Below are positions 2,505 to 57,527 of a DNA stretch of 64,000 bases, in pieces. Every line of letters begins with the position of its first letter. Position 1 is the stretch's first letter. The notes beneath the pieces are model-generated. The model was given only the letters and a program-made list of their open reading frames with translations, did not search any database and was not told where the DNA came from. This DNA is from Bacilli bacterium (lineage in GTDB: Bacteria; Bacillota_I; Bacilli_A; ML615J-28; CAG-698): assembly GCA_017617065.1 (NCBI GenBank), contig JAFZWP010000013.1, forward strand, positions 62,001-126,000, read 5' to 3'. The position numbers and the translations under genes are program-made.

Positions 2505-2507
2505 AGT

Positions 2508-5447: not shown

Positions 5448-5493
5448 GGTTCCTCCTAATTCTTTTAGTTTTTTAAGTTAGTATTCAATCTAA

Positions 5494-11507: not shown

Positions 11508-11525
11508 AAAATACCCCATTTACGT

Positions 11526-26551: not shown

Positions 26552-27526
26552 TTAAAAATCACATTTTAGTATTTTCTTCGCAAATTCAATCTTCTTTGGT
26601 AAATGGATTTCTTCGAATCCACCATGTCCATATCCCTCATATGGATATAGTTCTTTATAGCAGTTCATCTTTTTATATGCTTGATAAAAATATTTAGGTG
26701 GACATACATTATCTACCGTACCAAACGAAGAAATGACAGAAGCTTTAATTCTAGGTGCCATATTAATCACATCAAAATAATCTTGATTAGCCATTACAGT
26801 TTCTTTTAATTTTGGATGATCTTTCAAAAAATCATCTATAACTGTATATTTTCCTTCCCTATTTATTATTCTATCTTTAATTGCGCAATCACTTGGTACA
26901 TCAGATAAAGAAACTTTAATGTCATAATCAGACATAGCTGATACCATTAAAGATAATCCACCACCTTGGCTAGGGCCTGCTACGATTAGTGGCTGGCTTG
27001 CTAAAGGTGTACCATTTATATCTTTAAAAAGGTTAGGATCTTTAATAATATCAAGTAGTTTTAAAGCATCTTGATCTAGTCTTTTGTTGTAGCATGTCTC
27101 TAAATCGTCAATATTGAAACAAGCTGAAGGATAATCCATATAACGATATTTCGTATTATCGATTACCTTTCCATTTTGAAAACGCATATCGATAGCAAAT
27201 ACATTAAATCCAGCAGCTACTAAATTCATGCAGTGCCACTCGTTATCGGGATGATCAATATAGCTCATATGACCATGATAATATGCTACTACTGGACGAG
27301 ATGGTTCCCATCTTAAATATAATTTAGCAAATATCTTAGCACCATTTACTGAATCATAATAAAAATCAATAATCTTACCAAAACCATCTAATCTTACATC
27401 TTCTTTTACTATCTCTACATGATTCTTAACATCATGTACTTCTTTAAGCCATTTTGCCCATCTCTCATCAAAGTCAGCTGGCTTAATAGTAGATACATTA
27501 CATTCTAGATTCTTTAAATCAAACAT
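26552..27526 (-). CDS. Acetyl-xylan esterase/cephalosporin-C deacetylase family (CE7-like) esterase, cytosolic
   Basis: 324 residues, no signal peptide. Alpha/beta-hydrolase of the AXE1 type: 'AYYHGHMSYIDH' (oxyanion region), 'FNVFAIDMRFQ', nucleophile Ser in 'VAGPSQGGGLSL' (about residue 184), acid Asp in 'SSFGTVDNVCPP', and His in 'YEGYGHGGFEE'. CE7 enzymes remove acetyl groups from short oligosaccharides inside the cell. It lies 4 nt after manA and downstream of the mannan operon, so deacetylation of imported acetylated manno-oligosaccharides is the likely job (inference). Confidence 0.9.
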   Translation of the reverse strand: MFDLKNLECNVSTIKPADFDERWAKWLKEVHDVKNHVEIVKEDVRLDGFGKIIDFYYDSVNGAKIFAKLYLRWEPSRPVVAYYHGHMSYIDHPDNEWHCMNLVAAGFNVFAIDMRFQNGKVIDNTKYRYMDYPSACFNIDDLETCYNKRLDQDALKLLDIIKDPNLFKDINGTPLASQPLIVAGPSQGGGLSLMVSAMSDYDIKVSLSDVPSDCAIKDRIINREGKYTVIDDFLKDHPKLKETVMANQDYFDVINMAPRIKASVISSFGTVDNVCPPKYFYQAYKKMNCYKELYPYEGYGHGGFEEIHLPKKIEFAKKILKCDF

Positions 27527-27530
27527 ATTC

Positions 27531-28469
27531 TTATTTATATGATTCTACGATCACTAATTTACCTTTCCCTTTTATTTCTTCTTCGATAGCATTACTAGTA
27601 ACAATAAAGCTTTCACCTACACTAATAATCATATCTTCATATCTAAATAAACCACTAGCTACTGTACACAAATAATATTTATGCTCTTTGTTCATAAATC
27701 TAATTTGACGGCGTACATTCACTAATTTGATATTAAAATATTCATTATCCCATAATACATAATCATCTCTACTATCTAAATAGTCAGTATCATCAATTGT
27801 AGCATCATTTGGTACTTTAATTACATCTAATGATTTATCTAAATGCAATTCTCGCAAGTTTCCATTTTTGTCTTTGCGATTATAATCATAAAGTCTATAA
27901 GTTAGGTTAGAGGACTGTTGAACCTCTAAAAGAACTAAACCTTTACCTAAAGCATGGATTGTTCCAGCTGGAACTGGTACAAAGTTTCCTCTTTTAACAT
28001 CATGGTATTTAAGGAACGAGAAATCACCACTTCTAGCCATTTTCTCTAAATTTGCTTTATCTAGCTGATTATGGCCATAAACAATTTTTCCATGATCGCT
28101 ATTTATAATTAACCATGATTCAGTTTTACCTAAATCATTATCTTTTTTTGCATATTCATCATCAGGATGAACTTGCACACTTAAATCAGCACTAGTCGCT
28201 ATCATCTTCACTAGAATCGGAAATTCTACTGAAGTAGAATTAGCAAACAATTCGTGATGTTCTTTATATAACTTGTCAAGAGTTACCCCTTGGTATTTTC
28301 CATTTTTAATTGTAGATGGGAAATCTTTATAACCAGATATTGTCCATAATTCCCCAAAGTCTTTATCTTCTTTTGTTAAGTTTAATACATCTTTAAAATA
28401 TTTACCGCCCCATATCATTTCTCTTAAAGGGCTATCTAAAAATAAAATTCTGTCGTTATCTTTATTCAT
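27531..28469 (-). CDS. manA: Mannose-6-phosphate isomerase, type I
   Basis: 312 residues, the Bacillus-type short form. Interconverts mannose-6-phosphate and fructose-6-phosphate. Zinc-site blocks: 'LSVQVHPDDEYAKK' (His pair region), 'GKTESWLII', and 'VPAGTIHALGKGLVLLEVQQ'. GAGG precedes the start. It begins about 36 nt after the terminator of the giant-lipoprotein operon and is the natural final step for mannose released by that operon, although the window shows no mannokinase or phosphomannomutase. Confidence 0.95.
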   Translation of the reverse strand: MNKDNDRILFLDSPLREMIWGGKYFKDVLNLTKEDKDFGELWTISGYKDFPSTIKNGKYQGVTLDKLYKEHHELFANSTSVEFPILVKMIATSADLSVQVHPDDEYAKKDNDLGKTESWLIINSDHGKIVYGHNQLDKANLEKMARSGDFSFLKYHDVKRGNFVPVPAGTIHALGKGLVLLEVQQSSNLTYRLYDYNRKDKNGNLRELHLDKSLDVIKVPNDATIDDTDYLDSRDDYVLWDNEYFNIKLVNVRRQIRFMNKEHKYYLCTVASGLFRYEDMIISVGESFIVTSNAIEEEIKGKGKLVIVESYK

Positions 28470-28504
28470 AATAAAACCTCATTTATTTATAAATAATAAA
28501 AAAA

Positions 28505-28546
28505 GAATAGCATTACCCGAAGGTAATACCGTAGGTAATACTATCC
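28505..28546 (-). terminator. Terminator of the mannan-operon directon
   Basis: A 13-bp stem (28505-28517 with 28534-28546, two G-T wobbles) with a 16-nt loop that itself contains the near-palindrome GGTATTACC, followed on the minus strand by seven T. It lies 18 nt after the giant-gene stop. No strong separate promoter for manA is visible after it, so partial read-through into manA and the CE7-type esterase is possible. Confidence 0.85.
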
Positions 28547-28564
28547 TTTATTAATTAAATTTGA

Positions 28565-31500
28565 TTATTGCAATTCATTGCCAAGGAATGAAACTGTGCC
28601 TTGATATGATGCATCACCATTAGTGATTGTTAGATTGATTGTAGTTGTAGCATCTGCTGCAGGAGCTGAAGCTAATGTTACATAACATCTAACTGCACTT
28701 GCACTATAATTAGAGAATAATGTACCAACAACATTAATGCTTTCGCATGTAGCTGTTGCGCTGAATTGTGCCATATTTTCAGCTGTTAAGCCGATACTAG
28801 TTGGATCAATCCAAATCCATGCGCCAGCACCTTCAATGTGGTTACGTGCATCGCCTTCTGCTTGTAAGTTAGTTAATTGGAATGCAGCAGGGCTTGAAGC
28901 TTGTCCATTAGGTAATGCATAAACTTCAAATGAATTAATTCTTACTTGTGCACTTAAATTAGAAACTTTGAATGAATCAACTGGTGCAGCAAATACAACA
29001 GTAACAACCTTTGCATTGACAGTAACAGTTGCTCCCTCAGGGAAAGTAGAATTCTTTAATGCTGTAGCATAGTCATTAGAGTTTGCATTGAACACAACTT
29101 TGATTAATCCATTGTAATGAACTTCAATAGATTGTTTTGCATAAACTCTTATAGGGTTAACATAAGGTTCACCGCTATTGCTATTACAAGTAGTTGATGA
29201 ATTATCTTTATTAGCGATAAATGTTACATCACCTTGTACCCATTCTAGTTTATCAGCAGTTTTTGTTGACATAGTTCCTGTAGATGCGCTAGCAAATGAG
29301 AAATCAGCCACTTTTTCAGGTTCTACTGCACCTTCTTCTTTTGTTTCAACTACGATTTGAGTTGGTCCACCAATTGTAGCAGTGTATACGCCTTCAACAG
29401 CTTCTACATCCACACCATTAACTTTTACGCCTACTAATTCGTGGCCATTTGCTACATCAACTTTGAATGTGAATGTAGATCCATTTACGCCACTTTCAGC
29501 ACTAATTTCTTTAACTGTTGCATGTTCACTAGAATCTTGAGAAACACTAACTGTACTTGTTCCAGCTTTGCAAGCATCAATTACAGAATATAGAGATTCA
29601 CCATCAACCTTAGTTGTTGCGATTTGAAGAGTTCCGCCATAGTTCATTAAGTAAGCATGAACTAAAACTTCATCATTTACATAAACATTTTCAATACCAG
29701 TACCTTTAGATGCAGTATAGATTGCTAATAATGGTTTACCATTTAATGTACTAGCAATTTTTGCATTTTGTACATATGTACCTTTGTCTTCGCCAGCATT
29801 TACTACATAGCCCTTAATCCATACTTCTTGAACATCTACATATGCGCTAGATGAAGATCTACCCATTCTAGCAGCAAGATCTAGAGCTTCTTCAACAGTT
29901 AATGGATTAGCTTGAGTACCTTTATCATAACTTAATACGCAGTTACCTACATATAAGTATGTGCTTCCGCTAATTGAACTTCTTGTAACGAATACAACTG
30001 ATTTAACTTCTGCTGCATCAAATGTTAATTCTTGATCAATTAAGCCTTGTGTAACTGGAATTGTTACCCAGTTGTTAGCATCACCAGCGATGAATACTTC
30101 ACTTCCGTTAGCTAATACTAATTTAACTTTAACTGAGAAGTCTTGTGCACCACTGAAGTAGTTACCAACTTTGAATGATAATTTGTTTGCTAATCCTAAA
30201 ACTTCGCCATCTTTGTTATAAGTAAATCTCATAGGTACACTATAACCATTTACCATATTAACAACTTTAACGCCATCTTTAGTTCTAGCATTCATTTGAC
30301 CAGTAATTACATTCCATTTATCGTTCTTGTAATTTTCACGAGTCCATTTAGTACTATTGTAAGCGCCATCGCTTCCTGGATGATCAGCAAATAAGTTAAC
30401 ATTTGCAGGAGCAGCAGGAATAGTATATCCTTCTTCTACAACAACGTCATAGATATTAACTGCTGCATCCATACCACCAATGAAATATGTACCAGGAGTA
30501 GTAATAACATATTCAAGAATAGTAAGTTCTCCACTACCATATACTTGCTTACTAGTAATAACGTTCTTATCAGCATCAAAGATATGTAGTGTTCTAGTTT
30601 CAGAATTTGAACTATAAACATAAACTGTAACTTTTACAGATGAAGATTTTGTAGTGAATTTAATAGCACGAGCAGTTGGAGCAGATTTTCCACCTAATTT
30701 CATTCTTTTAGTGAAAGATAATGATCCAGCGTTTTTGCTATTTGCTTCTACAACAACAGTTTTATCTGCTGTAGCTAGTACTGTAAAGAAGTCTGCAAAT
30801 TGTGTATCTTCTTCAAGAGTAGCAGCTTGCATACCAGATACGTTTAGAGAATGCTTAGTATATGGATATGGAGCAACATGAACTTGTAATTCTGCTTTTC
30901 CTTCATTACCAGCAGCATCTTTAACTTTAACTGTAACTTTATAATCACCAGCGATTAATTGGTTAAGTGTTAATCCACCTAAGTCAACCATTTCTTGAGT
31001 AACTGCAATTGCACCATCGAAATCATCGTTAGCGCTTATGCCAGCTAATAATTGACCAAATAATGCAGATGCATCTTGACCTTCAGTTAAGTTAGCAGCA
31101 GCTAATGCAGTAGCAACTGAATCAGCAACAGTAACAACTGGAGCAGTCTTATCAATAGCAACTGTCATAGTGTTTGTAGCAGGATCATAAACAAGTTTAT
31201 ATTTTAAAGCTTGTCCTGGCATCCAACGATTGCCATCAGCTGATTCATGATATAAAGATTTATCCCATGCATCGCCAGTCTTTTCAGCTGCAGTAATAGC
31301 ACCTGCAAATTTAGCATTTGTATACCATAATGCAACTTCTGAATCATCTTCACCTACAACAACGAATGAAATTCTATTCCATGCGCCAAGATCAACTAAT
31401 GCTTCGTATTTACCATCTACTAATGCGAATTCGCCTTGTTTAGCTCCAGCATATTTAACTGCTTTAATTGTAGCAGGAACTGCAGGAACTGCGAAGTCGA

Positions 31501-34500
31501 TTGATAATGTATTAGTAGCAGGATTATATGCTACGCTATAATGAGTTTCACCATCTGCACTTAGGATGAATTCTCCTCTTTCAGCTGCATCGTCTTCTGA
31601 ATATAATACATTAGACCATGTAGCACCAGCTTTAGCTTCTAAAACTGCACTACCAATAACTTTAGCATTATCATAAGTTAAAACTTTTTTAGTTTCATCA
31701 GCAAATTCTAAAGTGAATGTAGCTCTTTGCCAAGAAGTAGCTAATGCAAATGTGCCTTCATAAATACCAGTTGCTTCATTTAATGTTAATGCACCTTCAG
31801 CATTTCCACCCATCTTAACACCAGTTAAAACTGGAGCTTCAGGTTTAACATATACTAATTGACTGATATAGAATGGATGTCCAGAACCAGTTTCACTGAT
31901 GTTAGGGAATACTACCATAGCAGGCTTGCTTGCATCATAAGTGAAGCTTGAAAAATCAATTGAACCGCTTATGGCTTTTCCATCCATTGAAATCCATTTT
32001 TCAGCAGATCCATTATTATTAGGTTTAATACATAATACTTCGCCCTTTGTACCACGAACTACATACTTAACTTCCGTAGCACCAGTTAAATCAACAGGTA
32101 ATGCAATTTCGATGCAATCCCAAGGTTCAGCATTATCAGCAGCTTTTGTTAATACTAAATCTCTACAAGCTTGAACATATTGATTGCTTAAAGTAATTGG
32201 AGCAAGTAATAAGTCAATTGGATCTTTTCCTTCACCTTGTAATTCTAATTTAGTAACTGTAAATTCATTGCTTTCACCAGCCTTATTGAAGTCTGGGAAA
32301 ATAATCATAGTTTGCTTTTCAGCATTCCATGCAAAGTTTTCAGCAGCATTCCATTCTACTTGAACAGCAGCGCCTGTTCCGTTTGCAGGAACTTCAACTT
32401 GGTCATTAACTTTGATTACGAATGGAGCACCAGCAGGGCCAGTAACTTCTGCAACCATCTTAGTGTAACCAGTTAAATCAGCATTAGTCTTTAGACCAAC
32501 CCAATCCCATTGACCGCCACCAGTCTTCATCATACGAATTTGATGAGCAACTTGGATAGTCTTAGGATTAATTGTTCCTTCTAATAAATCTACGCTATCT
32601 TCTACTGCTTCAGGGTAAACTGGAACATAATCAGGAATAGTAAGTGGGCTTCCTTTTGGAACAAGAATTTCAAATGCTGCTACTGCTGCATCGTATGCTT
32701 CTGTTCCTTCAACTAATAGGCTTCCATCTTTCTTAGAGATATTGAAACCACGTTTAATGTAGTTGCCCCACCATTCTTCAGTGATTTCTACTCTTTCATC
32801 TGAAGTGTTATTTTCTCTTGATGCTTGTTTGTTTTCATCAATCCATCCTTCAGGACGATATTGATAGCCATCAGCAATCTTAATTACTGAACCAACTGGT
32901 AATTCTTCTTTAGTGAATGTCTTTGTAGCAACAAACTTTTGAGAAGTTGTATCACCAGAGATTAATTGGTTGTAACGAGTTGAATCAGTTGTGTTGTAGT
33001 AACCATTACCTAAAATGTACTTGCTTGCTTCAACTTTAACTAAGTCTTCATCACCACTTTGACCTTGTTCAGGTTTTGTAACTAAGTAAGATAATGCAAG
33101 AACATATACAGGATTACCAGAACCAGTTGCATTAGGGTTAACGAAGAAGATAACTGCTGATTTAGCATTGTTGTAAGCCATACCAGTTAAACTAATGATA
33201 CCTTCTTGTAATGAACCAGTTAATGTAAGAGCCTTTTCATATCCACCATTATCATTTGGTTTAATGATAATAGAGTCGCCAGCTGTACCAATTACAGCGT
33301 ATTTAACTGCAGCATAACCGCTTAAATCATCGCTTACTTGGAACTTAGCGCAATCCCATGGTTCAGAATTAGAAGCTGGTTTTGTTAAAATAACCATCTT
33401 CTTAGCTGCGCAAGGATCACACTTAGTTAATGCACCAGCTAATAGATTAATAGGTTCTTTTCCTTCACCTTGTAATTCTAATTTAACAATTGCGAATTCG
33501 TTACCTTCACCAACCACATTGAAATCTGGGAACATAATCATAGTCTTCTTTGCAGCATCCCATGCAAAGTCTGCAGGAGCAGTCCATTCAACATGATTTA
33601 TTCCACCATTTCCATTTGCAGTGACTTCAATTGAATCATTAACTTTTAATACAAATGGCTTACCATCAGGACCGATTACATCAGCAACAACTTTATTGTA
33701 GCCTGTTAAATCATCTTCAACTGTTAAGCCAACCCAATCCCATTGACCGCCACCAGTCTTAGAAACTACTAAGCCATAAGATGCTTCGTGGTGTTGAGGA
33801 TCGATTGTAGCATTAAGTAAGTTAACGTCACCGATTTCTTTTGTTGAGTAAATAGCAAATTCTTTGAAGTAAATATTGTTACCAGCAACATCGCCAGCAT
33901 CGCCTGTAGGACCTACACAGAATTCAAGTGTTGGACCACTGTCAGCACCAGCAGTGCTATGTTTGTCATATGTGAATAATACAGTGTATTCAGCATATTC
34001 AGTACCAATCTTTACAAGTTTGCTATAATCTTCAGCAATTGTAAATGCATCCATCCATGGATCAGCCCATAGACCAATACCAAGGTTGAATTGTAATTGT
34101 CTAGCTTGATCAGCTTTAGCAACGATCTTTAATACATAAGATTCGCCTTCAACTAATTCAAGACCACTATATTTAACTTTGTTAGCAGATGCCCATCCAC
34201 CAACTGATGCTAAAGCGATTGTGTATTCGCCATCAGCTTCAGTGATTGTACATGCTTCTGCATTAGCGATTGCATCTGGAGCTAAATCAATAACAACTTG
34301 GTCAGCAACTAGTTTAGTGTTACCTTTTTCTCTTACAGAAATAGCAATTTCAACTTCTGCTTTATTGCCAGCAGCATCTGAAATTTCAATAACAACTTTG
34401 TATTCGCCAGCTTCGTTGAATTTAACTTGATCTAAGCCTTTAACATTAGCTTCAGTCAATGTCATAGCGCCATCTACATTATCAGTAACTGTTAAGTTAG

Positions 34501-37012
34501 CGATAATATCAGCAGCAGTTAATGGAGTACCAACATAAGTCTTAAGTGCTTTACCTTCAACTTTTGGAGCTTCTTTATCGTTAACTGTAATTGTAACAGT
34601 TAATGTAGCACTGTTACCACTTGAGTCTTTAACAGTATAAACGATATCATATGTTCCAACTACGTTAAGATTTGCGTTGTGTTGAATCATATCTGTAGTG
34701 ATTGTGATTACACCATCAACATCATCTGTAGCAGTGATGAACTTAGTGATATCTGGAGCAGCTGAGAATTGATCAAATACTTTAACAAGTCCATCAACTT
34801 CAGCTAATACTGGAGCAGTTGTATCTGCTTCTTCTAAGACTTTAATTTGTAAAGTAATAGTAGCTTCTTTACCTTCACTATCAGCAACTTTATAAACAAC
34901 ATCATATGTACCAGCTTTACTCATATCAACATTTTCAGTAATGTGAGCAGCAGTAATTTGAATGTCAGCTGCATCTTCTCTATCGTGAGCAGTTACATAT
35001 TGAGTAAGATCAGGTTTGTCTTGACCTTTACCAAATGTAGTTGGAAGATCTTTATTAATAGTTAAAGTAGGAGCTGCATTTTCATTTGATAATAGATAGA
35101 ATTGTAAATTATCAAAGTAGAATGTATTACCAACTTCTTCGGCTGCATTCCAAGTGAATGCTCCACCATTCTTTAATTCGCATGAAATACCGCTATATCC
35201 ATTAGCACTCTTGTCTGAATGAACATAGAATACAACATACTTAGTTTCCCAATCTGTTGAAACGCTTAACATGTAGTTAGATGCACCTTCGAAGTTTTCT
35301 AACCATACAGGAGCATCAGCAGCTAAACCAATACGTACAGACATATTTCTAGCAACAGCTGCTTTAACATCAAACTTCAACATATACCAGTTTTCAGCTT
35401 GTAATACTGTAGAATCAGTATCGATAATTGGGCAAGATGCTGAGTCATATCCTGGGTTTTCATTTGATCTATTATGATGTACTAATACACCATCTCTAGT
35501 ATACATTTCAGGATCACCAGCACCACCATGTAATCTAAATCCTTCCCAAATTGGATCAGTTGTGCCTTCTGCATAAGTTGAATCTGTTGAGAATGTAGGA
35601 TCTGTAATTAAATTTGTGCTATATGCTTTTGCAAATTCTACAGTTCTAGTAGCTTCGCCTCTATTGTTGCTTGAGTCAACAACATAGATTACAACTTGTT
35701 GTTCACCAGTTGCACCAGCAGCGATTCCACTTAAATCAACATCAAGACCAGCGTTTACTGGGCCATCAACATTATCGCTTGCAGTAACGCCAGCTAATAC
35801 TAATGGTTTAAGTGCAGCAGCATTTGCTAATAATTCTACTGGAAGAACCATCTTTCCTTCAGGAACATTGATTACAGGAGCAATAACGTCTTTAGCTTCT
35901 GCGAATGCGAATTTAACATCGCTAAATGTTAAGCTTGCATCAGCTGGAGCAGCAAGTTTTACAGCACCTTCTAAGATTGCAGAATTAACTCTGAAGTAAA
36001 CAGTAACATCATTGTCACCAGCAGCTAATGCGATCTTAGCTTGAGCAGTACCATTAGTAATGCTTGGAACAAGTTCACATGCAGCAGCAGCATTTACTTT
36101 GAATGTTAATTTAGCTAATGCGAATGCAGAAAGTTGAGTATTAATGCTTTCTAATGCAACAGCAAATTGATAATCAGCTTCAACTTTTGCAAATTCTTTA
36201 GCTGCTAAATCTTCGAATTGGAATTCGCCTAAGCCAACAGTAATAACTCTTGTAGCTTCAGCTTTATTTCCAGCAGCATCTGATACTTCATATTTAACTG
36301 AGTATTCGCCAAGTTTCCAAACATCTACTTCACCAGTAATCTTAATGTTTGCAGTAACATCGCCATCGATGGCATCATTAGCGCTTACATTATCAGTTAA
36401 TTTGAATTGTGTATCACCAATTATAATAGTTTTAGCACTTGTACCAGTTAATAATGGAGCATCTGTATCGTTTGAAACAACAGTAACTTTTCTTGTAACA
36501 GTTGTAACGTTACCAGCGCTATCTCTAACAGTATAAGTTGCAATGTATTCGCCAACTAAATTGAAGTTAACGTTTCCATCATATTGAATTTGATCTGTTA
36601 GATCACCATCTTCTTCATCACGGGCAGTTACGCCTTGAAGTGGTACAAATCTTTCGCCTTTTAAGATTTGAACATCATCTGCACCACTAATAACTGGAGC
36701 GTTATCAGCAATAACAGTGACTTCTATACTTGCTTCGCCAGTTTTCTTTCCTTTTGAAGCGGTTACAGTGATAGTAACTTTACCAGCACTAACACCGGTT
36801 ACACTACCGTCTTTTACAGTAGCGACAGCATCATTACTTGAAGCCCAAGTGAATGTAGCTCCACTCTTTGATGCTTCAGGAGTCAACTTGATTGTTTGAC
36901 CAACTTTAACTTGAGTATCGCCTGATACTTTAACAGTAACTTTACCGCAGGCTACTAAGCTAAAGGTTACAAGTAACAATAAAATTGACATCAAAATTCT
37001 TTTTGTTCTCAT
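28565..37012 (-). CDS. Giant multi-domain (Ig-like, CBM-like) surface lipoprotein
   Basis: 2,815 residues. Lipobox LVAC (Cys22). Order by eye: Big_2 Ig domain (24-100); two DUF5011/HYR-like Ig domains (105-258); further Ig (376-462); a CBM4/9-like sandwich (463-640); three more DUF5011 domains (645-890); a second CBM4/9-like module (890-1050); a two-part beta module with 'TGGGQWDWVGL' near 1089, repeated near 1501 (412 residues apart); two tandem SusE/F-like repeats (about 1725-1960, 'YDPATNTMTV'); another Ig; and C-terminal modules including one with 'VQEVWIKGYVVNAG' (DUF6359-like, about 2330-2440). No catalytic motif and no LPxTG. Last gene of the mannan directon, 48 nt after MalG2, AAGGAGG site. 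I infer a polysaccharide-capturing scaffold on the cell surface. By eye it is Ala/Thr-rich and less AT-rich than its neighbours. Confidence 0.85.
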   Translation of the reverse strand: MRTKRILMSILLLLVTFSLVACGKVTVKVSGDTQVKVGQTIKLTPEASKSGATFTWASSNDAVATVKDGSVTGVSAGKVTITVTASKGKKTGEASIEVTVIADNAPVISGADDVQILKGERFVPLQGVTARDEEDGDLTDQIQYDGNVNFNLVGEYIATYTVRDSAGNVTTVTRKVTVVSNDTDAPLLTGTSAKTIIIGDTQFKLTDNVSANDAIDGDVTANIKITGEVDVWKLGEYSVKYEVSDAAGNKAEATRVITVGLGEFQFEDLAAKEFAKVEADYQFAVALESINTQLSAFALAKLTFKVNAAAACELVPSITNGTAQAKIALAAGDNDVTVYFRVNSAILEGAVKLAAPADASLTFSDVKFAFAEAKDVIAPVINVPEGKMVLPVELLANAAALKPLVLAGVTASDNVDGPVNAGLDVDLSGIAAGATGEQQVVIYVVDSSNNRGEATRTVEFAKAYSTNLITDPTFSTDSTYAEGTTDPIWEGFRLHGGAGDPEMYTRDGVLVHHNRSNENPGYDSASCPIIDTDSTVLQAENWYMLKFDVKAAVARNMSVRIGLAADAPVWLENFEGASNYMLSVSTDWETKYVVFYVHSDKSANGYSGISCELKNGGAFTWNAAEEVGNTFYFDNLQFYLLSNENAAPTLTINKDLPTTFGKGQDKPDLTQYVTAHDREDAADIQITAAHITENVDMSKAGTYDVVYKVADSEGKEATITLQIKVLEEADTTAPVLAEVDGLVKVFDQFSAAPDITKFITATDDVDGVITITTDMIQHNANLNVVGTYDIVYTVKDSSGNSATLTVTITVNDKEAPKVEGKALKTYVGTPLTAADIIANLTVTDNVDGAMTLTEANVKGLDQVKFNEAGEYKVVIEISDAAGNKAEVEIAISVREKGNTKLVADQVVIDLAPDAIANAEACTITEADGEYTIALASVGGWASANKVKYSGLELVEGESYVLKIVAKADQARQLQFNLGIGLWADPWMDAFTIAEDYSKLVKIGTEYAEYTVLFTYDKHSTAGADSGPTLEFCVGPTGDAGDVAGNNIYFKEFAIYSTKEIGDVNLLNATIDPQHHEASYGLVVSKTGGGQWDWVGLTVEDDLTGYNKVVADVIGPDGKPFVLKVNDSIEVTANGNGGINHVEWTAPADFAWDAAKKTMIMFPDFNVVGEGNEFAIVKLELQGEGKEPINLLAGALTKCDPCAAKKMVILTKPASNSEPWDCAKFQVSDDLSGYAAVKYAVIGTAGDSIIIKPNDNGGYEKALTLTGSLQEGIISLTGMAYNNAKSAVIFFVNPNATGSGNPVYVLALSYLVTKPEQGQSGDEDLVKVEASKYILGNGYYNTTDSTRYNQLISGDTTSQKFVATKTFTKEELPVGSVIKIADGYQYRPEGWIDENKQASRENNTSDERVEITEEWWGNYIKRGFNISKKDGSLLVEGTEAYDAAVAAFEILVPKGSPLTIPDYVPVYPEAVEDSVDLLEGTINPKTIQVAHQIRMMKTGGGQWDWVGLKTNADLTGYTKMVAEVTGPAGAPFVIKVNDQVEVPANGTGAAVQVEWNAAENFAWNAEKQTMIIFPDFNKAGESNEFTVTKLELQGEGKDPIDLLLAPITLSNQYVQACRDLVLTKAADNAEPWDCIEIALPVDLTGATEVKYVVRGTKGEVLCIKPNNNGSAEKWISMDGKAISGSIDFSSFTYDASKPAMVVFPNISETGSGHPFYISQLVYVKPEAPVLTGVKMGGNAEGALTLNEATGIYEGTFALATSWQRATFTLEFADETKKVLTYDNAKVIGSAVLEAKAGATWSNVLYSEDDAAERGEFILSADGETHYSVAYNPATNTLSIDFAVPAVPATIKAVKYAGAKQGEFALVDGKYEALVDLGAWNRISFVVVGEDDSEVALWYTNAKFAGAITAAEKTGDAWDKSLYHESADGNRWMPGQALKYKLVYDPATNTMTVAIDKTAPVVTVADSVATALAAANLTEGQDASALFGQLLAGISANDDFDGAIAVTQEMVDLGGLTLNQLIAGDYKVTVKVKDAAGNEGKAELQVHVAPYPYTKHSLNVSGMQAATLEEDTQFADFFTVLATADKTVVVEANSKNAGSLSFTKRMKLGGKSAPTARAIKFTTKSSSVKVTVYVYSSNSETRTLHIFDADKNVITSKQVYGSGELTILEYVITTPGTYFIGGMDAAVNIYDVVVEEGYTIPAAPANVNLFADHPGSDGAYNSTKWTRENYKNDKWNVITGQMNARTKDGVKVVNMVNGYSVPMRFTYNKDGEVLGLANKLSFKVGNYFSGAQDFSVKVKLVLANGSEVFIAGDANNWVTIPVTQGLIDQELTFDAAEVKSVVFVTRSSISGSTYLYVGNCVLSYDKGTQANPLTVEEALDLAARMGRSSSSAYVDVQEVWIKGYVVNAGEDKGTYVQNAKIASTLNGKPLLAIYTASKGTGIENVYVNDEVLVHAYLMNYGGTLQIATTKVDGESLYSVIDACKAGTSTVSVSQDSSEHATVKEISAESGVNGSTFTFKVDVANGHELVGVKVNGVDVEAVEGVYTATIGGPTQIVVETKEEGAVEPEKVADFSFASASTGTMSTKTADKLEWVQGDVTFIANKDNSSTTCNSNSGEPYVNPIRVYAKQSIEVHYNGLIKVVFNANSNDYATALKNSTFPEGATVTVNAKVVTVVFAAPVDSFKVSNLSAQVRINSFEVYALPNGQASSPAAFQLTNLQAEGDARNHIEGAGAWIWIDPTSIGLTAENMAQFSATATCESINVVGTLFSNYSASAVRCYVTLASAPAADATTTINLTITNGDASYQGTVSFLGNELQ

Positions 37013-37060: not shown

Positions 37061-38005
37061 TTATTCACCAGCAATACCTGAACGATCCGCGCTCTCTACA
37101 AACCATTTTTGAGTGAACGCATACAATAACAATAATGGCAAAATTGTCAACATTGTTCCCGCAAATAAAACACCTTGATTAAACGATTCCGCCGCAGCTC
37201 CAATACCAATCGATCCAGATGGGAATAGTTGAGCATACATATGTTCAAAACTAGATAATGCCATCTGTAAAGTGGTGATGTTTCCTTGGAAATACGTTAC
37301 CGCTAAAACCGTTTCATTCCAGTACCATACAAATGAATATAATATACATATTATAAATGCTGGTACTGACATAGGAATCGCAATTCTAATGAAGATTCCT
37401 ACTTCACTCGCTCCATCAATCTCCGCAGATTCACTTAATTCATGAGGTATCACTTTAAAAAACTGATAGAAAATTAAGATGAATACGCTTTGACGCAATC
37501 CAAATCCAGTTAGCGCTGGATAGATATACGCCTTTAGACTGCCTAACATTTTTAACTTTTGAAATATGACATATGTCGGGATACTCATTAACATTGTTGG
37601 AAGTAAGAAAATACCAACAAGTAGTGCCATCCAGATTTTTTTACCTGGAAACTCAAAATGAGCAAATCCATAACCAATCAGTGACGATGAGATCACCGCG
37701 CATAATGTTGGCAGAATACCAACTTTTAGAGAATCACCAAGTGATTTCCAAAAGTTTAAAACTTCGTTTGCTTTTTGATAATTATTAAAAACAAACTTTG
37801 TTGGAATCCAAATTACCGTTGGATCCATTAAATCCTCTAAACCCATAAAGCTTTTTGAAACCATCTTTAGGATAGGATAAAGGAAAATAAAACTAATACC
37901 GATTAATAACATGTAGATGAAGAATTTGCCAATTAAGCCAGACTCGCCTCGCTCACCTAGCATAATCTTCTTAAATGTCCTCTTCTTCTTAAATGTATTT
38001 TCCAT
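37061..38005 (-). CDS. Second MalG-type sugar ABC permease (mannan operon)
   Basis: About 314 residues with six membrane segments and an EAA loop 'ESAEIDGASEVGIFIRIAIP', in which the usual first Ala is Ser. It is more divergent from the other two MalG proteins here than they are from each other, and ends 'ADRSGIAGE'. The start at 38005 is chosen for the AGGTGG site 5 nt upstream; an earlier in-frame start at 38035 lies inside the malF-like gene. No dedicated binding protein directly flanks this pair. Confidence 0.9.
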   Translation of the reverse strand: MENTFKKKRTFKKIMLGERGESGLIGKFFIYMLLIGISFIFLYPILKMVSKSFMGLEDLMDPTVIWIPTKFVFNNYQKANEVLNFWKSLGDSLKVGILPTLCAVISSSLIGYGFAHFEFPGKKIWMALLVGIFLLPTMLMSIPTYVIFQKLKMLGSLKAYIYPALTGFGLRQSVFILIFYQFFKVIPHELSESAEIDGASEVGIFIRIAIPMSVPAFIICILYSFVWYWNETVLAVTYFQGNITTLQMALSSFEHMYAQLFPSGSIGIGAAAESFNQGVLFAGTMLTILPLLLLYAFTQKWFVESADRSGIAGE

Positions 38006-38012
38006 AACCCAC

Positions 38013-39068
38013 CTACTTATACTTCCTATTAGCAAGTTTGAAGATTAATACATATACTAATATTACCACGATCTCAATACCGAATAATATCCAAGAAAGA
38101 GCTGAAGCATAATCACGTCCGTACTCAGGTGGAGCGATATTTGAACTAATTATACCTGTTAGCTCGTTACCTGTATTGGCATATATTACGGTAGTATAGA
38201 TAATATTAATCGTAATTAGGGGCATTAATGTCGGGAAGGTAATTTTCCAGAACATTTCCCATTTATTTGCACCATCAATGCTAGCTGCTTCATAAACTGC
38301 TGTGTTATCTTTTTGTAAACCTGCCAGAAATACTAAAGTTTGTACACCGCTAAACCATAAAATTAAAATGATTTTACCGAATACATCTATAATTATTTCT
38401 ACAACTCTCTCAGGTAAATAGAAATCTAACATCCCGCGAAGCTCAGAGCTTTGCAAAGTTGATACCGTAAGTAAATCATAAGCGTTAAAGTAATTTAGTA
38501 AATTACCAGAAAGTAAGATAACTGGAATGAAGAATATCATTCTAAAGATCTTAATTCCTTTTAATTTACGATGAAGTAGTAACGCTAAAAGTAATGAGAA
38601 GATCAAAACTAGTGGAACTACAACTGCAATATCGACAAGTGTAGATATAATTGCTTCCACATGTTCAGGATTATCTTGGAAGATTTGTTTAAACTGGCTA
38701 AAGCCAAATCCTTCAATAAAGAACTTAACTACATTCGTTCCAGCAATAACTTTTGTACCCGCAAAATCCGCAAGTGCCATTCGTATTGATTGGATAACTG
38801 GTCTAACAGCAAATAAAATAAATCCCACAATCCATAGCGATATAAACAAATATCCAGCTACAGCTTTTTTATGTTTGTTTGAAACATTCTTTCGGTATTT
38901 AGCAAGCAACCAGCTTATACCAGTATATTTACCAATAAATCTTAATCCTTTACCAATCCATACTGCTAATTTGCATCTAACGAATTCACTAATAACAATA
39001 TAGATTTTCTTAAAGAATATGCTAATCTTATCCCAAATCTTTTTAAAGAACTCTTTAATCTTTTTCAT
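38013..39068 (-). CDS. Second MalF-type sugar ABC permease (mannan operon)
   Basis: 351 residues. An unusually long, Lys-rich amphipathic N-terminal region (about residues 1-70) precedes the first transmembrane helix. Six helices follow, with EAA loop 'EAASIDGANKWEMFWKITFP'. It starts 2 nt after the DUF5696-like gene and pairs with the MalG gene 7 nt downstream. Probable partner receptors are the large CBM-SBP fusion or the giant lipoprotein; that is speculative. Confidence 0.9.
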   Translation of the reverse strand: MKKIKEFFKKIWDKISIFFKKIYIVISEFVRCKLAVWIGKGLRFIGKYTGISWLLAKYRKNVSNKHKKAVAGYLFISLWIVGFILFAVRPVIQSIRMALADFAGTKVIAGTNVVKFFIEGFGFSQFKQIFQDNPEHVEAIISTLVDIAVVVPLVLIFSLLLALLLHRKLKGIKIFRMIFFIPVILLSGNLLNYFNAYDLLTVSTLQSSELRGMLDFYLPERVVEIIIDVFGKIILILWFSGVQTLVFLAGLQKDNTAVYEAASIDGANKWEMFWKITFPTLMPLITINIIYTTVIYANTGNELTGIISSNIAPPEYGRDYASALSWILFGIEIVVILVYVLIFKLANRKYK

Positions 39069-39070
39069 TA

Positions 39071-41362
39071 TTAGTTACCTCCTTTCACTAAATAGCTATA
39101 AGGAGACAAACTAACTCCGTCCACATTAACCACTTTATTATTGTAGTTAACATAGATTACTACACCATTACTATAACTACATTTACTAACACCGCTATCT
39201 ACGTAACTATGACTGGTCATTCTTGCTCCAATTACATTAGATAAAGCGTTATTAGTATCTTTGTACATTTTAACCATTAAATCTTTCCATAAATCATATT
39301 GTGTAGAATTCAAATACTCATAATTTGTATATCTTAAATCATAAGCTTCTTCACTAGTTATTATGAATGATGGATAGATATTATACTCAATCATTCTTAA
39401 AACGGCTAAATCATAATCACTAATATAATTTATATTAGGCATGTACATATTTATTATACCACTAATTAAAATAGATACAAATGGAATAGAATCAGTTTCA
39501 TAAACAAATTTATTAGATTCATAAAATGCATCATAATAATTTGATAAATACTTGAGCAAATATGAATTTGGCTTTTCGGCGCCAATTTTATAACCTTCAA
39601 TTTTACTTAGTTCTGTTGCTACTTGATCAATCATTTGTGTTCTATAAATAGCATCTGATTTATAACGATATGAATAAGCCGAATTTAAGTTATCAATCTT
39701 TAAGCCAGTAATATTAAGTTTATTAAACTTATTAGTCTTCTTCGTTATTAATCTAGATAAATCACTAGGTAAAACATAATATCCAATTTGTTCTTGTGAA
39801 GACTTTTGCGTTACTTCAAATGGTGAAAGACCAATTCGCTTAACATTTTTACTGCTAGTTCCATAACTACTTGATACATATGGATTAATTGTATAATCGA
39901 TACTATATCCTTTTTCATCGATGTAACTTGCTAACTTTTTAAGCTTTGATGCTCCACCAAGGCGAATAGCCGCTTTAGCATTCATTGCTCCTTGCGTGAA
40001 GTAACCACCCCTATTCCAGCCAAGGTAAGTAATATCAAAATTATTAACTTCACTTTGTTCTAGATCTTTAATAATATCTAATGCTTCCATAAATGATGTC
40101 ATTTTGACATAATTCTTACCAAATAAGCCTGGTTTATAATCAAGACCTAAGATTTCTAATCTTAGTGGGATATTACTACTAGCTTCAATTACATTATCAA
40201 GACCTAAATCTTCGCGATAAGCATTAGCCATACCAACATAGTTAGCATCATCCCCATTTAAGAATGTATAACTAATCGTATAATTTGATGGATAAGGATT
40301 TTCATTTAATAATGTCATTGTAGATGTAGACATCTTTACATTAAATGTATCCTTTACATAATACTTAAAGAAAGTCGTATTGACAGGAATTAAGCTATAC
40401 ATATATGGATATGAATGTAGTTCGCAACTTCCATAGCCATCTTCTACTTGACATAAGAAGCTTGCTTGATTGTAACCATGATTAACTCCATAAATTGGTA
40501 AGCTTAAAACACCATTCTCTTTTAAGTTATTACTAGCTGGATATTCGGTAAAACTATAATCATCACCATATAGTTTCTTAATATATGCTGTTGATGATTT
40601 GTGTTGATTATATCTTACTAGCGCTCCAGACCCATCAGGGATAAAACTATATCCATTTATTTCATAGTTTTCTGATCCAAAATAAGGGAATAAGATAATA
40701 CTTTTTAGTTTTGAATCTTTTGGATTAAGTGTACCAGCTATTTCTTCTTTAATTGAATCATAAGGAACACTAACAAATAGCTTATCATCATCAAGTCTAA
40801 ATTCAACTTTAAAGCTAATTAAGTAATTCAAACTAGAAAACTTAACATTAGCATCAAAACCATTATTAACTTTAGTTACTGTATTAGAAGCTACAGCTTT
40901 TTTGTTTTCTTTAGAAGTATAATAAACTTCTGCTGATTTAATAATACCTTTACTATCAACTGAATAATATTCAATAGTAATTCCTGATTCAATCTTACTT
41001 TGTACAGCTGCTGTATTAATGAATTCATGGGCCCTCTCATAAGTAGATAACCATGTATAGCCATTTGATTTATCATAGACAGCAATACCAAATGTAGATG
41101 ACTTGAAATATAAACTAATTTTAGAGTTTTCTGCCATCAACTGGTAACCATCTTCTAAAAGGTTTGCTCTTTTATCTACTATTTCAATCGGCGTAGTATC
41201 TTCTACTTGTGTGAAGAAATTACTTGATGGATCAAGTTCGTGAAGCAACTGGACTTCACCACTTGTATCCTTTGCCCTAACATTAATTACATTAACTGTA
41301 AACAATATGCCAATCATTAACACAATCAAGCAAGTGATAATTTTCTGAATTTTTCTATCCAC
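39071..41362 (-). CDS. DUF5696-like exported protein, probable TIM-barrel
   Basis: 763 residues. Signal/anchor segment at about 9-28, then a beta-rich N-terminal half ('YDKSNGYTWLSTYERAHEF', 'ILFPYFGSENYEINGYSFIP', 'PDGSGALVRYNQHKS'), and a C-terminal half that reads like a (beta/alpha)8 barrel ('DITYLGWNRGGYFTQG', 'YSIDYTINPYVS', 'LNITGLKIDNLNSAY', 'GYKIGAEKPNSYLL'). I assign it to DUF5696 from remembered family features; no enzymatic activity is established. The start is a GTG at 41362 behind an excellent AAGGAGGTGA site, overlapping the NHL-Yip1 gene by 8 nt. Located between the NHL protein and the second permease pair, it is plausibly an extracytoplasmic glycan-processing or docking factor. 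Confidence 0.7.
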   Translation of the reverse strand: MDRKIQKIITCLIVLMIGILFTVNVINVRAKDTSGEVQLLHELDPSSNFFTQVEDTTPIEIVDKRANLLEDGYQLMAENSKISLYFKSSTFGIAVYDKSNGYTWLSTYERAHEFINTAAVQSKIESGITIEYYSVDSKGIIKSAEVYYTSKENKKAVASNTVTKVNNGFDANVKFSSLNYLISFKVEFRLDDDKLFVSVPYDSIKEEIAGTLNPKDSKLKSIILFPYFGSENYEINGYSFIPDGSGALVRYNQHKSSTAYIKKLYGDDYSFTEYPASNNLKENGVLSLPIYGVNHGYNQASFLCQVEDGYGSCELHSYPYMYSLIPVNTTFFKYYVKDTFNVKMSTSTMTLLNENPYPSNYTISYTFLNGDDANYVGMANAYREDLGLDNVIEASSNIPLRLEILGLDYKPGLFGKNYVKMTSFMEALDIIKDLEQSEVNNFDITYLGWNRGGYFTQGAMNAKAAIRLGGASKLKKLASYIDEKGYSIDYTINPYVSSSYGTSSKNVKRIGLSPFEVTQKSSQEQIGYYVLPSDLSRLITKKTNKFNKLNITGLKIDNLNSAYSYRYKSDAIYRTQMIDQVATELSKIEGYKIGAEKPNSYLLKYLSNYYDAFYESNKFVYETDSIPFVSILISGIINMYMPNINYISDYDLAVLRMIEYNIYPSFIITSEEAYDLRYTNYEYLNSTQYDLWKDLMVKMYKDTNNALSNVIGARMTSHSYVDSGVSKCSYSNGVVIYVNYNNKVVNVDGVSLSPYSYLVKGGN

Positions 41363-43454
41363 GGAAAATCACCTCCTTGACAAGATCCACATTAAATCCA
41401 AACAATTGTGCAAATACTAAATACAACAAGATTATTACAATTACTAATACTAGCATCATAAATGCAGTTAATAATAAATTAACGATTGTTTGTTTAGCCG
41501 AGAAATTATGCGTTTCTTTTATAACAACAAATAATAATATTCCTGTCCAAATAAACATTACTACTAATGGGAAGTAATATAAGAATCCTTCATTTAGAGT
41601 TAATGCATTAGATATTAGTATTATCCAAGGCATAACAATTACAATTGGCATTAATGAACCCATTGTATTGATTGTAATTGTTCTAAATGTTCCTTCACCA
41701 CTCATTAGTGAAGATATTAAGTAATTGCTTACAATAAACAAAGCAATTGGTAAAATAATCTTCGTTAATTCTTTTAATAAAATTGTTCTTTCTAGTACTA
41801 CATCAGTAAATAAGAATCCTGTTGCTACCAAAGATAATAAATAAATTCCTAATAATAATACTAATACTATTAAAGCATTATAGATTTTAATTCGTTTATC
41901 ATATCTTACATAATATACGGCATCAAATGGATGACGGATATATTTAAACATAATTAAAATACTTTTAACCTTTGGTCTACTTGCCACCTTCTTAATTGGA
42001 TTAGTTATTTTATCTAAATAATGATGTTTCTTATTAGTCTTAATAACTACTATAATTGCTATTATTACTAAAACAGCAATAATGGCTACTATACTAATGT
42101 TTTTCATTAGCCATAAGTTTCTAGCTTCCCAGAATGCTTCCGAATATTGTTCTTTCGCATTGGCTAATTTAAACTTTTCCATAGCTCCATCATAATCACG
42201 TTCTAGATAATATGCCATTCCGATACCTTTATGAGCTAGGTCAAACATTGAATTATATCTCAAAACTTCTTCCCAAAGATCTTTTGATTCTTCATATTTA
42301 CCGCTCATATAAAGTTCTAAGGCTTCATGAACTTTTGTGGAGAACTCGGTCTTTCTAAATACTTGAATGGACGATGCTTGATCATCAACTACATATAAAT
42401 CATCTTTGCTATCTACCGCAATTGATGAAGCAGATTTAAATAAACCAAGTTGTTCATCACCACTAATAGTTCCTGAGAACATGAATAGAAGGTTTCCTTC
42501 AATATCATATTCAAAGATTGTTCCACCTTTACTAACAGCATAAACTGTTTTATGGTTAGAACTCCATGAATCCACAAAACTATTTGATACTATCATATCG
42601 TTAGTATAGAAGTTTAGACCACCGATATTAACTTTTTTAATAGTATCACCTAAATCATTTTGAACTACTCCTTGTGTTACAGTGTAGATATATCCAGAAT
42701 CATCTAACATTACGTTTTCTGGAGCTGGAGCAATCTTCTTTGTTAACACAACTTTTTCATTTTCCCCATAAAGGTAATTTTTTAGTAAATCAAGGAAGTT
42801 ACCACTTGAAGAGTTTGGTGCAAAGAAGTTTAGGAATCTATTTTCACTATTAACTAAAAGTACACCATTGCTTGATCCATGCGATACGATATACATCGTA
42901 TAGTTAGAATCAACTGCTATCTTCATTGGACGGTACAAGAAGTCATCAACTTCCATTAATGATCCACTTGGTCTACTAAATGTTTTATCAAGTGTTGCTG
43001 TCTTTAAGTTTTTATCAAATTTATAAACAGCTACTTTACCTGTATCGGTTTTTTGATTATCACCAAAATCAGTAACATAAACATATTCATTTCTAACGAA
43101 TAAACCATTAGGTTTAATCAATATGTCACTACCAAATTCAGTAATATAAGTCCAATCTTTATCTAAAATTACAACACGTTTATTTCCAGTATCGCATACA
43201 TAGAAATAATCTTCTTTATCAATGAATAAATCTTGAGGTGAATTAAAGGCATCATCTTCACCTAGACCATTTACAAATGATTTAATGTTTTGGATTGGGT
43301 CATATGCTCCTTGTGTTTCCACAATCTCTCCATATCTATTTACAGTACGCGTTACATATGGAGCACTTGCCTTAACATTTAAGCAAGATATTATAACCAC
43401 AATCGCTAGTATAGCGATAAAGTATTTTGTAATTAATCTAACTCTTTTATTCAT
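41355..43454 (-). CDS. NHL-repeat / TPR / Yip1-like membrane protein
   Basis: 699 residues. Signal peptide (1-30), six or so NHL-type propeller blades (about 50-350: 'FNSPQDLFIDKEDYFYVCDT', 'KPNGLFVRNEYVYVTDFGD', 'SSIAVDSKDDLYVVDD'), a TPR pair (about 365-430: 'YEESKDLWEEVLRYNSMFDL', 'DYDGAMEKF'), a transmembrane helix (about 447-467), and a five-helix Yip1-like domain (about 500-690). The outside propeller, tethered through TPR to a membrane domain, suggests a sensor or assembly factor for the importer (inference). The start overlaps the MalG stop by 1 nt (TAATG), exactly as its paralogue does at 652. Confidence 0.85.
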   Translation of the reverse strand: MNKRVRLITKYFIAILAIVVIISCLNVKASAPYVTRTVNRYGEIVETQGAYDPIQNIKSFVNGLGEDDAFNSPQDLFIDKEDYFYVCDTGNKRVVILDKDWTYITEFGSDILIKPNGLFVRNEYVYVTDFGDNQKTDTGKVAVYKFDKNLKTATLDKTFSRPSGSLMEVDDFLYRPMKIAVDSNYTMYIVSHGSSNGVLLVNSENRFLNFFAPNSSSGNFLDLLKNYLYGENEKVVLTKKIAPAPENVMLDDSGYIYTVTQGVVQNDLGDTIKKVNIGGLNFYTNDMIVSNSFVDSWSSNHKTVYAVSKGGTIFEYDIEGNLLFMFSGTISGDEQLGLFKSASSIAVDSKDDLYVVDDQASSIQVFRKTEFSTKVHEALELYMSGKYEESKDLWEEVLRYNSMFDLAHKGIGMAYYLERDYDGAMEKFKLANAKEQYSEAFWEARNLWLMKNISIVAIIAVLVIIAIIVVIKTNKKHHYLDKITNPIKKVASRPKVKSILIMFKYIRHPFDAVYYVRYDKRIKIYNALIVLVLLLGIYLLSLVATGFLFTDVVLERTILLKELTKIILPIALFIVSNYLISSLMSGEGTFRTITINTMGSLMPIVIVMPWIILISNALTLNEGFLYYFPLVVMFIWTGILLFVVIKETHNFSAKQTIVNLLLTAFMMLVLVIVIILLYLVFAQLFGFNVDLVKEVIFRG

Positions 43455-48318: not shown

Positions 48319-48343
48319 ACTGAATACCTCTTTTCTTTTTTTA

Positions 48344-50928: not shown

Positions 50929-50938
50929 TACTTCACCT

Positions 50939-52999: not shown

Positions 53000-53001
53000 T
53001 T

Positions 53002-55036: not shown

Positions 55037-55044
55037 AACTACCA

Positions 55045-57513: not shown

Positions 57514-57527
57514 AACTAAATCCTTTT

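Follow-up and report, generated by a model that had tools for sequence, protein, structure and literature searches.

The window analysed here is a stretch of 64,000 nucleotides, and the gene under study occupies positions 28565-37012 of its minus strand. The gene is an intact ORF with an ATG start and encodes a modular lipoprotein of 2,815 residues, as an earlier note on this DNA had stated. The lipid anchor claimed there is also supported, since residues 19-22 form a lipobox (L-V-A-C) with a predicted lipidated Cys22. The features of the gene and its surroundings are as follows, with residues numbered along the 2,815-residue protein.

26552-28469 (-): mannose-6-phosphate isomerase and AXE1 acetyl esterase genes, just past the terminator
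28500-28550 (-): hairpin terminator directly 3' of the gene (fold z-score, T tail)
28568-28903 (-): C-terminal module, residues 2704-2815 (profile search, 3 proteins)
28901-29917 (-): three segments without assigned family, residues 2366-2704 (model pLDDT mostly <50)
29909-30421 (-): Z module, residues 2198-2368; predicted CBM-like jelly roll (model residues 151-318; profile search)
30425-30865 (-): relative of a pectate-lyase carbohydrate-binding domain (8wc1, 8x8h), residues 2050-2196 (sequence and fold match)
30869-31165 (-): Ig-like repeat 7, residues 1950-2048 (self-comparison)
31148-31849 (-): two Y modules, residues 1722-1955 (profile search; no Pfam or PDB match that counts)
31841-32203 (-): X2b module, residues 1604-1724; predicted beta-sandwich
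32204-32581 (-): X2a module with WDW motif, residues 1478-1603; CBM29-like predicted fold
32496-32527 (-): 32-nt stretch identical to 33729-33760
32627-33061 (-): W module, residues 1318-1462; a copy forms the C-terminus of a DUF4886 protein of the same genome
33059-33424 (-): X1b module, residues 1197-1318 (self-comparison, profile search)
33425-33811 (-): X1a module with WDW motif, residues 1068-1196; apparently converted by X2a (self-comparison, profile search)
33729-33760 (-): 32 nt identical to 32496-32527; the apparent gene-conversion tract starts here
33845-34306 (-): CBM4/9-type module C905, residues 903-1056 (core profile against 1gui_A CBM4)
34313-35080 (-): three Ig-like repeats, residues 645-900 (Pfam, self-comparison)
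35087-35617 (-): CBM4/9-type module C470, residues 466-642; related to C905 (z 11.8; profile search; Pfam CBM_4_9 in homologues)
35603-35890 (-): Ig-like repeat 3, residues 375-470 (self-comparison)
35891-36229 (-): small domain n270, residues 262-374; conserved across the core family (profile search, 25 ORFs, some being the same gene under several locus ids)
36233-36715 (-): two Ig-like (PF16403) repeats, residues 100-260 (Pfam, self-comparison; PDB match to 4hmc_A, Chitinase 60 residues 322-478, E 1.3e-19)
36713-36943 (-): Big_2 Ig-like domain, residues 24-100 (Pfam PF02368, E 5e-9)
36947-37012 (-): signal peptide with lipobox LVAC and Cys22; lipobox also in 15/15 homologues listed
37061-45332 (-): import operon with permeases D and C, DUF5696 protein, NHL/Yip1 membrane protein, permeases B and A
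45325-49900 (-): two solute-binding proteins (1014 and 518 aa), the first only with a Pfam SBP match
49915-59180 (-): mannan genes, namely GH130, GH5 lipoprotein, GH130, LacI regulator, GH2 beta-mannosidase-type and CE2 esterase

In transcription order, the operon begins with the CE2 esterase, the GH2 beta-mannosidase-type enzyme, the LacI regulator, GH130, the GH5 lipoprotein and GH130. The solute-binding proteins of 518 aa and then 1014 aa follow, and after them come two permeases, the NHL/Yip1 protein, the DUF5696 protein, two more permeases and the gene under study. Pfam assigned no family to the 518-aa protein; its name comes from its position and from its resemblance to a paralogue (5494-7014) with SBP matches. 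The ~1000-aa solute-binding proteins (45325-48369 and 2508-5447) carry a long N-terminal extension ahead of the SBP domain, and that of the paralogue at 2508-5447 gave weak CBM_35 and Golvesin_C matches. In the operons seen, the DUF5696 protein (39071-41362) and the NHL/TPR/Yip1 membrane protein (41355-43454) accompany four permeases.

The earlier note placed the gene at the end of the mannan operon. In support of this placement, the 95 nt that separate the gene from the next one are taken up by a hairpin with a T tail (fold z -4.75), although the mannose-6-phosphate isomerase gene adjoins. The alternative that the gene is not operon-terminal because this isomerase gene follows was ruled out by the hairpin. 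A hairpin after the core gene was present at 6/7 loci tested (the window and 5/6 others) and absent in L070. By itself, the simple hairpin scan did not exceed chance (1 found, 0.6 expected), and the fold z-scores carry the evidence. The 3' neighbours are, on the same strand, the mannose-6-phosphate isomerase, the AXE1 esterase and then an M3 peptidase. In the sister species the AXE1 esterase gene is split into two ORFs (L048:4796-5770).

Altogether, the protein comprises one Big_2 domain, seven Ig-like repeats, n270, two CBM4/9-type modules, four X modules in two pairs (residues 1068-1318 and 1478-1724), one W, two Y, one pectate-lyase-type module, one Z and a C-terminal stretch (residues 2366-2815). 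The Pfam scan detected PF16403 in 6 stretches of the Ig-like repeats (E 6.7e-53), and n270 had no Pfam family above the Pfam cut-off. For CBM_4_9, the window protein itself gave no Pfam match at E<=1; the family was found in core homologues (e.g. L054, E 3.1e-11), and the core family profile matched the CBM4 of laminarinase 16A (1gui_A, E 3.8e-7). The described alternation of Ig-like and CBM4/9-like modules holds for the first ~1060 residues but not beyond, where the modules are mostly side-by-side beta-modules with one more Ig repeat. No recognised catalytic family was found in the Pfam, NCBIfam and PDB sequence scans, in line with the earlier claim of a protein without a catalytic domain; residues 2366-2704 are without assigned family, and the Pfam scan of these pieces gave none. 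Structure prediction of the modules yielded usable folds for the X2 pair, the pectate-lyase-type module and Z, whereas Y and residues 2366-2704 were modelled poorly. The Pfam scan of 14 Y members gave one weak match (X25_BaPul_like, E 0.022, 1/14), and hmmsearch of the X and Y profiles against PDB sequences gave no useful match. The pectate-lyase-type module matched 8wc1/8x8h in sequence (E 1.5e-11 over residues 2056-2191) and its model matched them in fold (Z 17.5-18.0, 28-29% identity, 138-142 aligned of 144-151). Residues 2050-2196 are thus a relative of the pectate-lyase carbohydrate-binding domain, by sequence and fold over the whole domain. A weak relative of this module was found on a pectinesterase protein (L015).

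Residues ~100-1061, with their Ig repeats and CBM4/9-type modules, form a core that is conserved in 17 species of Bacilli/Mollicutes. The core profile was built from these residues aligned with five homologues. Among 395 genomes of the class, 16 matched the core at E<=1e-40; 14 hold the core, and two (G058 and G194) that matched in the Ig part only were dropped. A scan of named genomes gave 79 loci, the first 13 of which (L062-L074) were kept as core, while the other 66 were dropped as mainly Ig-repeat matches, judged from the listing. The dropped Clostridium tarantellae loci L075 and L078 showed 24-25% identity over most of the length and could be distant relatives. The 17 species are the 14 class genomes and L065, L068 and L069; the other ten L loci were equated with G genomes, with gene content among the grounds. 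Among the carriers are Peloplasma aerotolerans, several MAGs of Acholeplasmataceae and Tenericutes, and one Bacilli MAG from yak rumen that belongs to the window's genus.

The core gene lies directly after a homologue of the permease at 37061-38035 in 16/17 species; in the exception, L068, a DUF4886 lipoprotein intervenes. GH130 and/or GH5 homologues occur in the same gene run in 11/11 species where the sequence reaches, the other 6 not being reached. By this synteny, the tie of a lipid-anchored, non-catalytic, CBM-like protein to a mannan operon held up across the family. G060 and G147 also have a GlcNAc_2-epim family gene in the operon region, which would suit a mannobiose epimerase. In three relatives (L160, L162, L169), a protein of 504-512 aa is encoded directly after the core gene. 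Complete core homologues outside the window's genus have ~1,160-1,915 residues, compared with 2,815-2,964 within it, and in this form residues 1062-2815 are confined to that genus. The CBM4/9-type modules number two in the window protein and two to four in the core homologues, many of which have more than two.

The 31 X copies that we collected come from the genome that holds the window, from the sister species and from a single relative within the order. No Pfam family covers the 31 scanned members, which gave three single weak matches. In the first AlphaFold model, the X2 pair was well modelled (blocks mostly 70-90 pLDDT, model mean 60). In the VIA comparison, the best 11 of the 50 matches listed all belonged to CBM29-1 and CBM29-2 of Piromyces non-catalytic protein 1, at Z 10.9-11.3 and rmsd 2.5-2.8 with 120-121 residues aligned. 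The next were Dictyostelium CBM8 (Z 10.4), CBM4-2 (10.4), CBM11 (10.1) and MtGlu5 of Meiothermus (9.9). Given that CBM8 and CBM4 are tied with CBM29 within about 1 Z, the fold by itself does not single out CBM29. In Foldseek on the first model, Vip3, ion-channel and other large chains outranked CBM29 by E-value, with top rows of rmsd >15 A. At the sequence level, hhalign of X against CBM29-2 gave no similarity (probability 0.3, 19 columns), and hmmsearch of the X profile against PDB sequences gave no CBM29 chain at E<=10. As far as the consulted parts of the sources describe it, a W-x-W pair and a third aromatic are common to CBM29-2, the inserted CBM of MtGlu5 and CBM8 (PMC9063844, PMC9079177). 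Type-a X copies carry W-x-W in 9/11 and Y-x-W in 2/11, plus an invariant Tyr, as read from an alignment; these residues may correspond to the W24-x-W26 and Y46 aromatic platform of CBM29. In the window protein the Trp pairs are W1091/W1093 and W1502/W1504. Because there is no sequence link to CBM29, the X modules are CBM29-like by fold and motif and are not shown to be members. The predicted fold is a CBM29-like beta-jelly-roll, resembling the gluco/mannan-binding CBM29.

The two X pairs bear on the earlier claim that a module with TGGGQWDWVGL is duplicated 412 residues apart. The duplication is real, with the motif starting at residues 1086 and 1497, and the spacing is 411 residues (1233 nt). 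The 32-nt identity claimed between 33729-33760 and 32496-32527 is exact. In register, the duplicated DNA showed 172-nt copies that are 80% identical and 151-nt copies that are 77% identical. X1a and X2a share 75/123 residues (z = 67 against 100 shuffles), far above chance. X1a here is 61% identical to X2a and 50% identical to its own orthologue in the sister species, whereas X1a and X2a of the sister species are 36% identical. The site-by-site excess of identity to X2a is limited to residues ~1085-1190 of X1a, with the 32-nt identity at the start of the tract, and X1b has no comparable excess. The sister species (L063) already carries both X pairs. The duplication was therefore conserved, as the earlier note allowed, and not fairly recent, as it also suggested: it predates the split from the sister species, and one half-module was apparently overwritten later. 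Recent duplication was thus ruled out as the source of the near-identity. The identity of 61% here versus 36% in the sister, confined to one tract, is best interpreted as intragenic gene conversion, in which X2a overwrote X1a. Elsewhere in the protein, the sister species carries other sequence at the W position and at residues ~2560-2704, between conserved flanks, and three Y modules compared with two in the window protein.

X matches were found in 30/395 class genomes, and 28 of these 30 also have DUF5696, compared with 110/395 overall. The Fisher value for this comparison takes no account of how the genomes are related. From the X matches listed we typed 37 places, one per contig (or one per gene for G000 and G001 on their mannan and beta-1,2-glucan contigs), and took the best 3 DUF5696 genes per genome as listed. 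At least 22 of the 37 have a listed DUF5696 gene within 25 kb, and DUF5696 was found on 2 further contigs, G006 C38 and G141 C16. In many fetched X stretches, the X protein adjoins a small solute-binding protein or lies near a GH3 and a PF10091 protein, which we take to be GH144-type; neighbourhoods of the latter kind look like a beta-1,2-glucan system. No such neighbours were present in several fetched stretches, among them G153, G131 C3, G002, G017, G176, G329 C18, G272 and G246. In the window's own genome, an X protein lies close to each of the four DUF5696 genes: those of the mannan, beta-1,2-glucan and GH16-bearing (C20) systems and the one on C4, where an opposite-strand gene separates the two.

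The second of these importers occupies window positions 1-11519 and the 20 kb before the window (L010), with SOGP-domain, PF10091 and GH3 genes. It probably serves beta-1,2-glucan, judging by these genes, and ends in its own X-module lipoprotein of 1200 aa with 7 X copies. In the third system, an X and CBM4/9 lipoprotein (L011:7786-12119) adjoins a GH16 lipoprotein, and the system probably serves a beta-1,3 or mixed-linkage glucan. One X and one Z also occur in a BspA-type leucine-rich-repeat protein of 1411 aa (L013:3135-7370, C24), with no listed DUF5696 gene nearby. DUF4886 lipoproteins lie near importers at L012:7079-9517 and L068:8248-9792. The former carries one X copy, and its W module shares ~54-55% identity with the W of the window protein; the W match to the L068 protein reached E 0.011 only. 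With X in the mannan, beta-1,2-glucan and GH16 DUF5696 systems, the window protein combines a core of the mannan type with modules that are typical of sister systems. Since its C-terminal ~1,750 residues consist of modules also found on lipoproteins and enzymes of other operons, the protein may touch more than mannan.

The envelope of the host was assessed from two wall markers. Neither PF00905 (PBP transpeptidase) nor PF00953 (MraY-type transferase) was matched in the window's own genome, which is 98.75% complete, while they were matched in 10/14 and 12/14 control genomes, respectively. These results suggest that the cell is probably wall-less, and a lipoprotein of 2,815 residues would then stand directly in the medium. 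The core carrier Peloplasma aerotolerans is described as wall-less in the part of the report consulted (PMC11122141).

Taking together the anatomy, the lipobox, the terminator hairpin, the synteny, the shared modules and the missing peptidoglycan markers, we favour the reading, at a probability of roughly three in four, that the protein is a non-catalytic, lipid-anchored surface receptor that captures glycan for a beta-mannan import operon; the binding, the substrate and the hand-over to the transporter are what we infer. The Ig repeats would hold the CBM4/9-type modules away from the membrane and give them reach. At the surface of the probably wall-less cell, these modules would capture mannan or plant cell-wall material that bears it. 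Mannan held near the GH5 lipoprotein and the solute-binding proteins of the operon would be cut by the former, and the solute-binding proteins and the four permeases would supply the GH130 phosphorylases with imported oligosaccharides. In the window's genus, the ~1,750 added residues, with their CBM29-like X, pectate-lyase-type and other modules, probably widen the grip to other plant cell-wall glycans. It counts against a glycan receptor that many beta-sandwich modules bind proteins or nothing, and X, which occurs mostly in other operons, may not bind mannan. Further points against it are the restriction of the CBM29 likeness to the fold, the size of the segment without assigned family (residues 2366-2704), and a number of CBM4/9-type modules below that of many core homologues.

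The mixed origin of the C-terminal half raises a serious if somewhat doubtful alternative, namely that this half is a general adhesin for plant particles (pectin, beta-glucans, mannan) in the rumen, with the mannan operon serving only as its site of expression. It joins modules of different systems, including the pectate-lyase type, W from a DUF4886 protein, and X, whose DUF5696 operons in several cases include beta-1,2-glucan genes; the replacement of W and of residues 2560-2704 by other sequence in the sister species fits the same picture. Against the adhesin, the core common to 17 species is specific to the mannan operon in its synteny, and glycan binding by the added modules is presumed. 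For X above all, the main rival is that the modules make protein-protein contacts, with the transporter, with the GH5 lipoprotein or among themselves, in a surface complex instead of binding sugar. X does follow the DUF5696 importer type more than one sugar, as evidenced by the genome counts above and by X proteins of the own genome beside mannan, beta-1,2-glucan and GH16-bearing systems. We nevertheless consider docking unlikely, because the fold predicted for X is that of sugar binders and the type-a copies keep a W-x-W pair like that of CBM29-2, the Meiothermus CBM and Dictyostelium CBM8.

Ig-rich bacterial surface proteins can bind host factors, and Ig-rich Listeria surface proteins were among the weaker matches of the core search. 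A host-interaction or adhesion protein, directed at mucin or epithelium and in the operon by chance, is nonetheless very improbable, given that the gene follows the same permease of a mannan-type operon in nearly all species. In addition, one carrier, Peloplasma aerotolerans, is described as a free-living mud-volcano species in the part of the report consulted (PMC11122141).

Beyond this locus, a glycan receptor of this kind could represent an undescribed class of glycan capture in wall-less and related Bacilli, a proposal that we advance tentatively, at close to but short of even odds. Each DUF5696 importer, defined as four permeases, the DUF5696 and NHL/Yip1 proteins and a giant and a small solute-binding protein, would have its own CBM-array receptor lipoprotein replacing SusD/SGBP. 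There would be two recombining receptor lineages, one in which an Ig-CBM4/9 core serves mannan and one in which tandem CBM29-like X modules serve other beta-glycans, with the window protein as a hybrid and X as a new CBM family. Such a CBM-type family would lie outside Pfam and follow one importer type rather than one enzyme class. How polysaccharide is held during import without a SusCD pair is poorly described in Gram-positive-lineage and wall-less gut bacteria. DUF5696 was not named in any paper found in the open-licence literature, and among the titles seen there none dealt with Gram-positive mannan surface glycan-binding lipoproteins with ABC transporters. The receptor gene is conserved and strictly placed, and one carrier of both core and operon, P. 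aerotolerans M4Ah, is cultured; the reading is therefore testable.

Several known systems invite comparison. The cellulosomal scaffold suggested by the earlier note was ruled out, as cohesin and dockerin were absent from the Pfam scan at E<=1. Piromyces equi NCP1 is a fungal cellulosome protein. Like NCP1 with its CBM29-1 and CBM29-2, the window protein is non-catalytic and has modules of CBM29-type fold (predicted here) with a W-x-W motif; unlike it, X has no detectable sequence similarity to NCP1. According to the portion of the literature consulted, CBM29 binds both cello- and manno-oligosaccharides (PMC13357471). Sas20, from the amylosome of Ruminococcus bromii, is likewise described as binding polysaccharide at the cell surface in a Gram-positive gut bacterium (PMC9112005). 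Sas20 acts on starch within amylosome complexes, whereas the window protein has no dockerin or cohesin match. The 8wc1/8x8h domain is named as part of putative pectate lyases, and its relative here lies in a protein without a recognised enzyme domain.

The closest parallel concerns the earlier suggestion of a Sus-type binding protein. SusE/F and SGBP-A/B of Bacteroidota are non-catalytic, lipid-anchored proteins of several beta-sandwich modules encoded in an import operon. Unlike SusCD systems, the window operon has BPD_transp_1 ABC permeases and solute-binding proteins and no outer-membrane pair. Unlike SGBPs, the protein has 2815 residues, its cell is probably wall-less, and no sequence relation was found. 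With permeases and solute-binding proteins in place of SusC/SusD, membership in the SGBPs does not stand. The likeness lies in a lipoprotein without a recognised catalytic domain in a polysaccharide utilisation operon, and SGBP-B (7kwb) is among the fold matches of X (Z 9.7, rmsd 3.5 over 136). A protein that works like the SGBPs is therefore the best reading.
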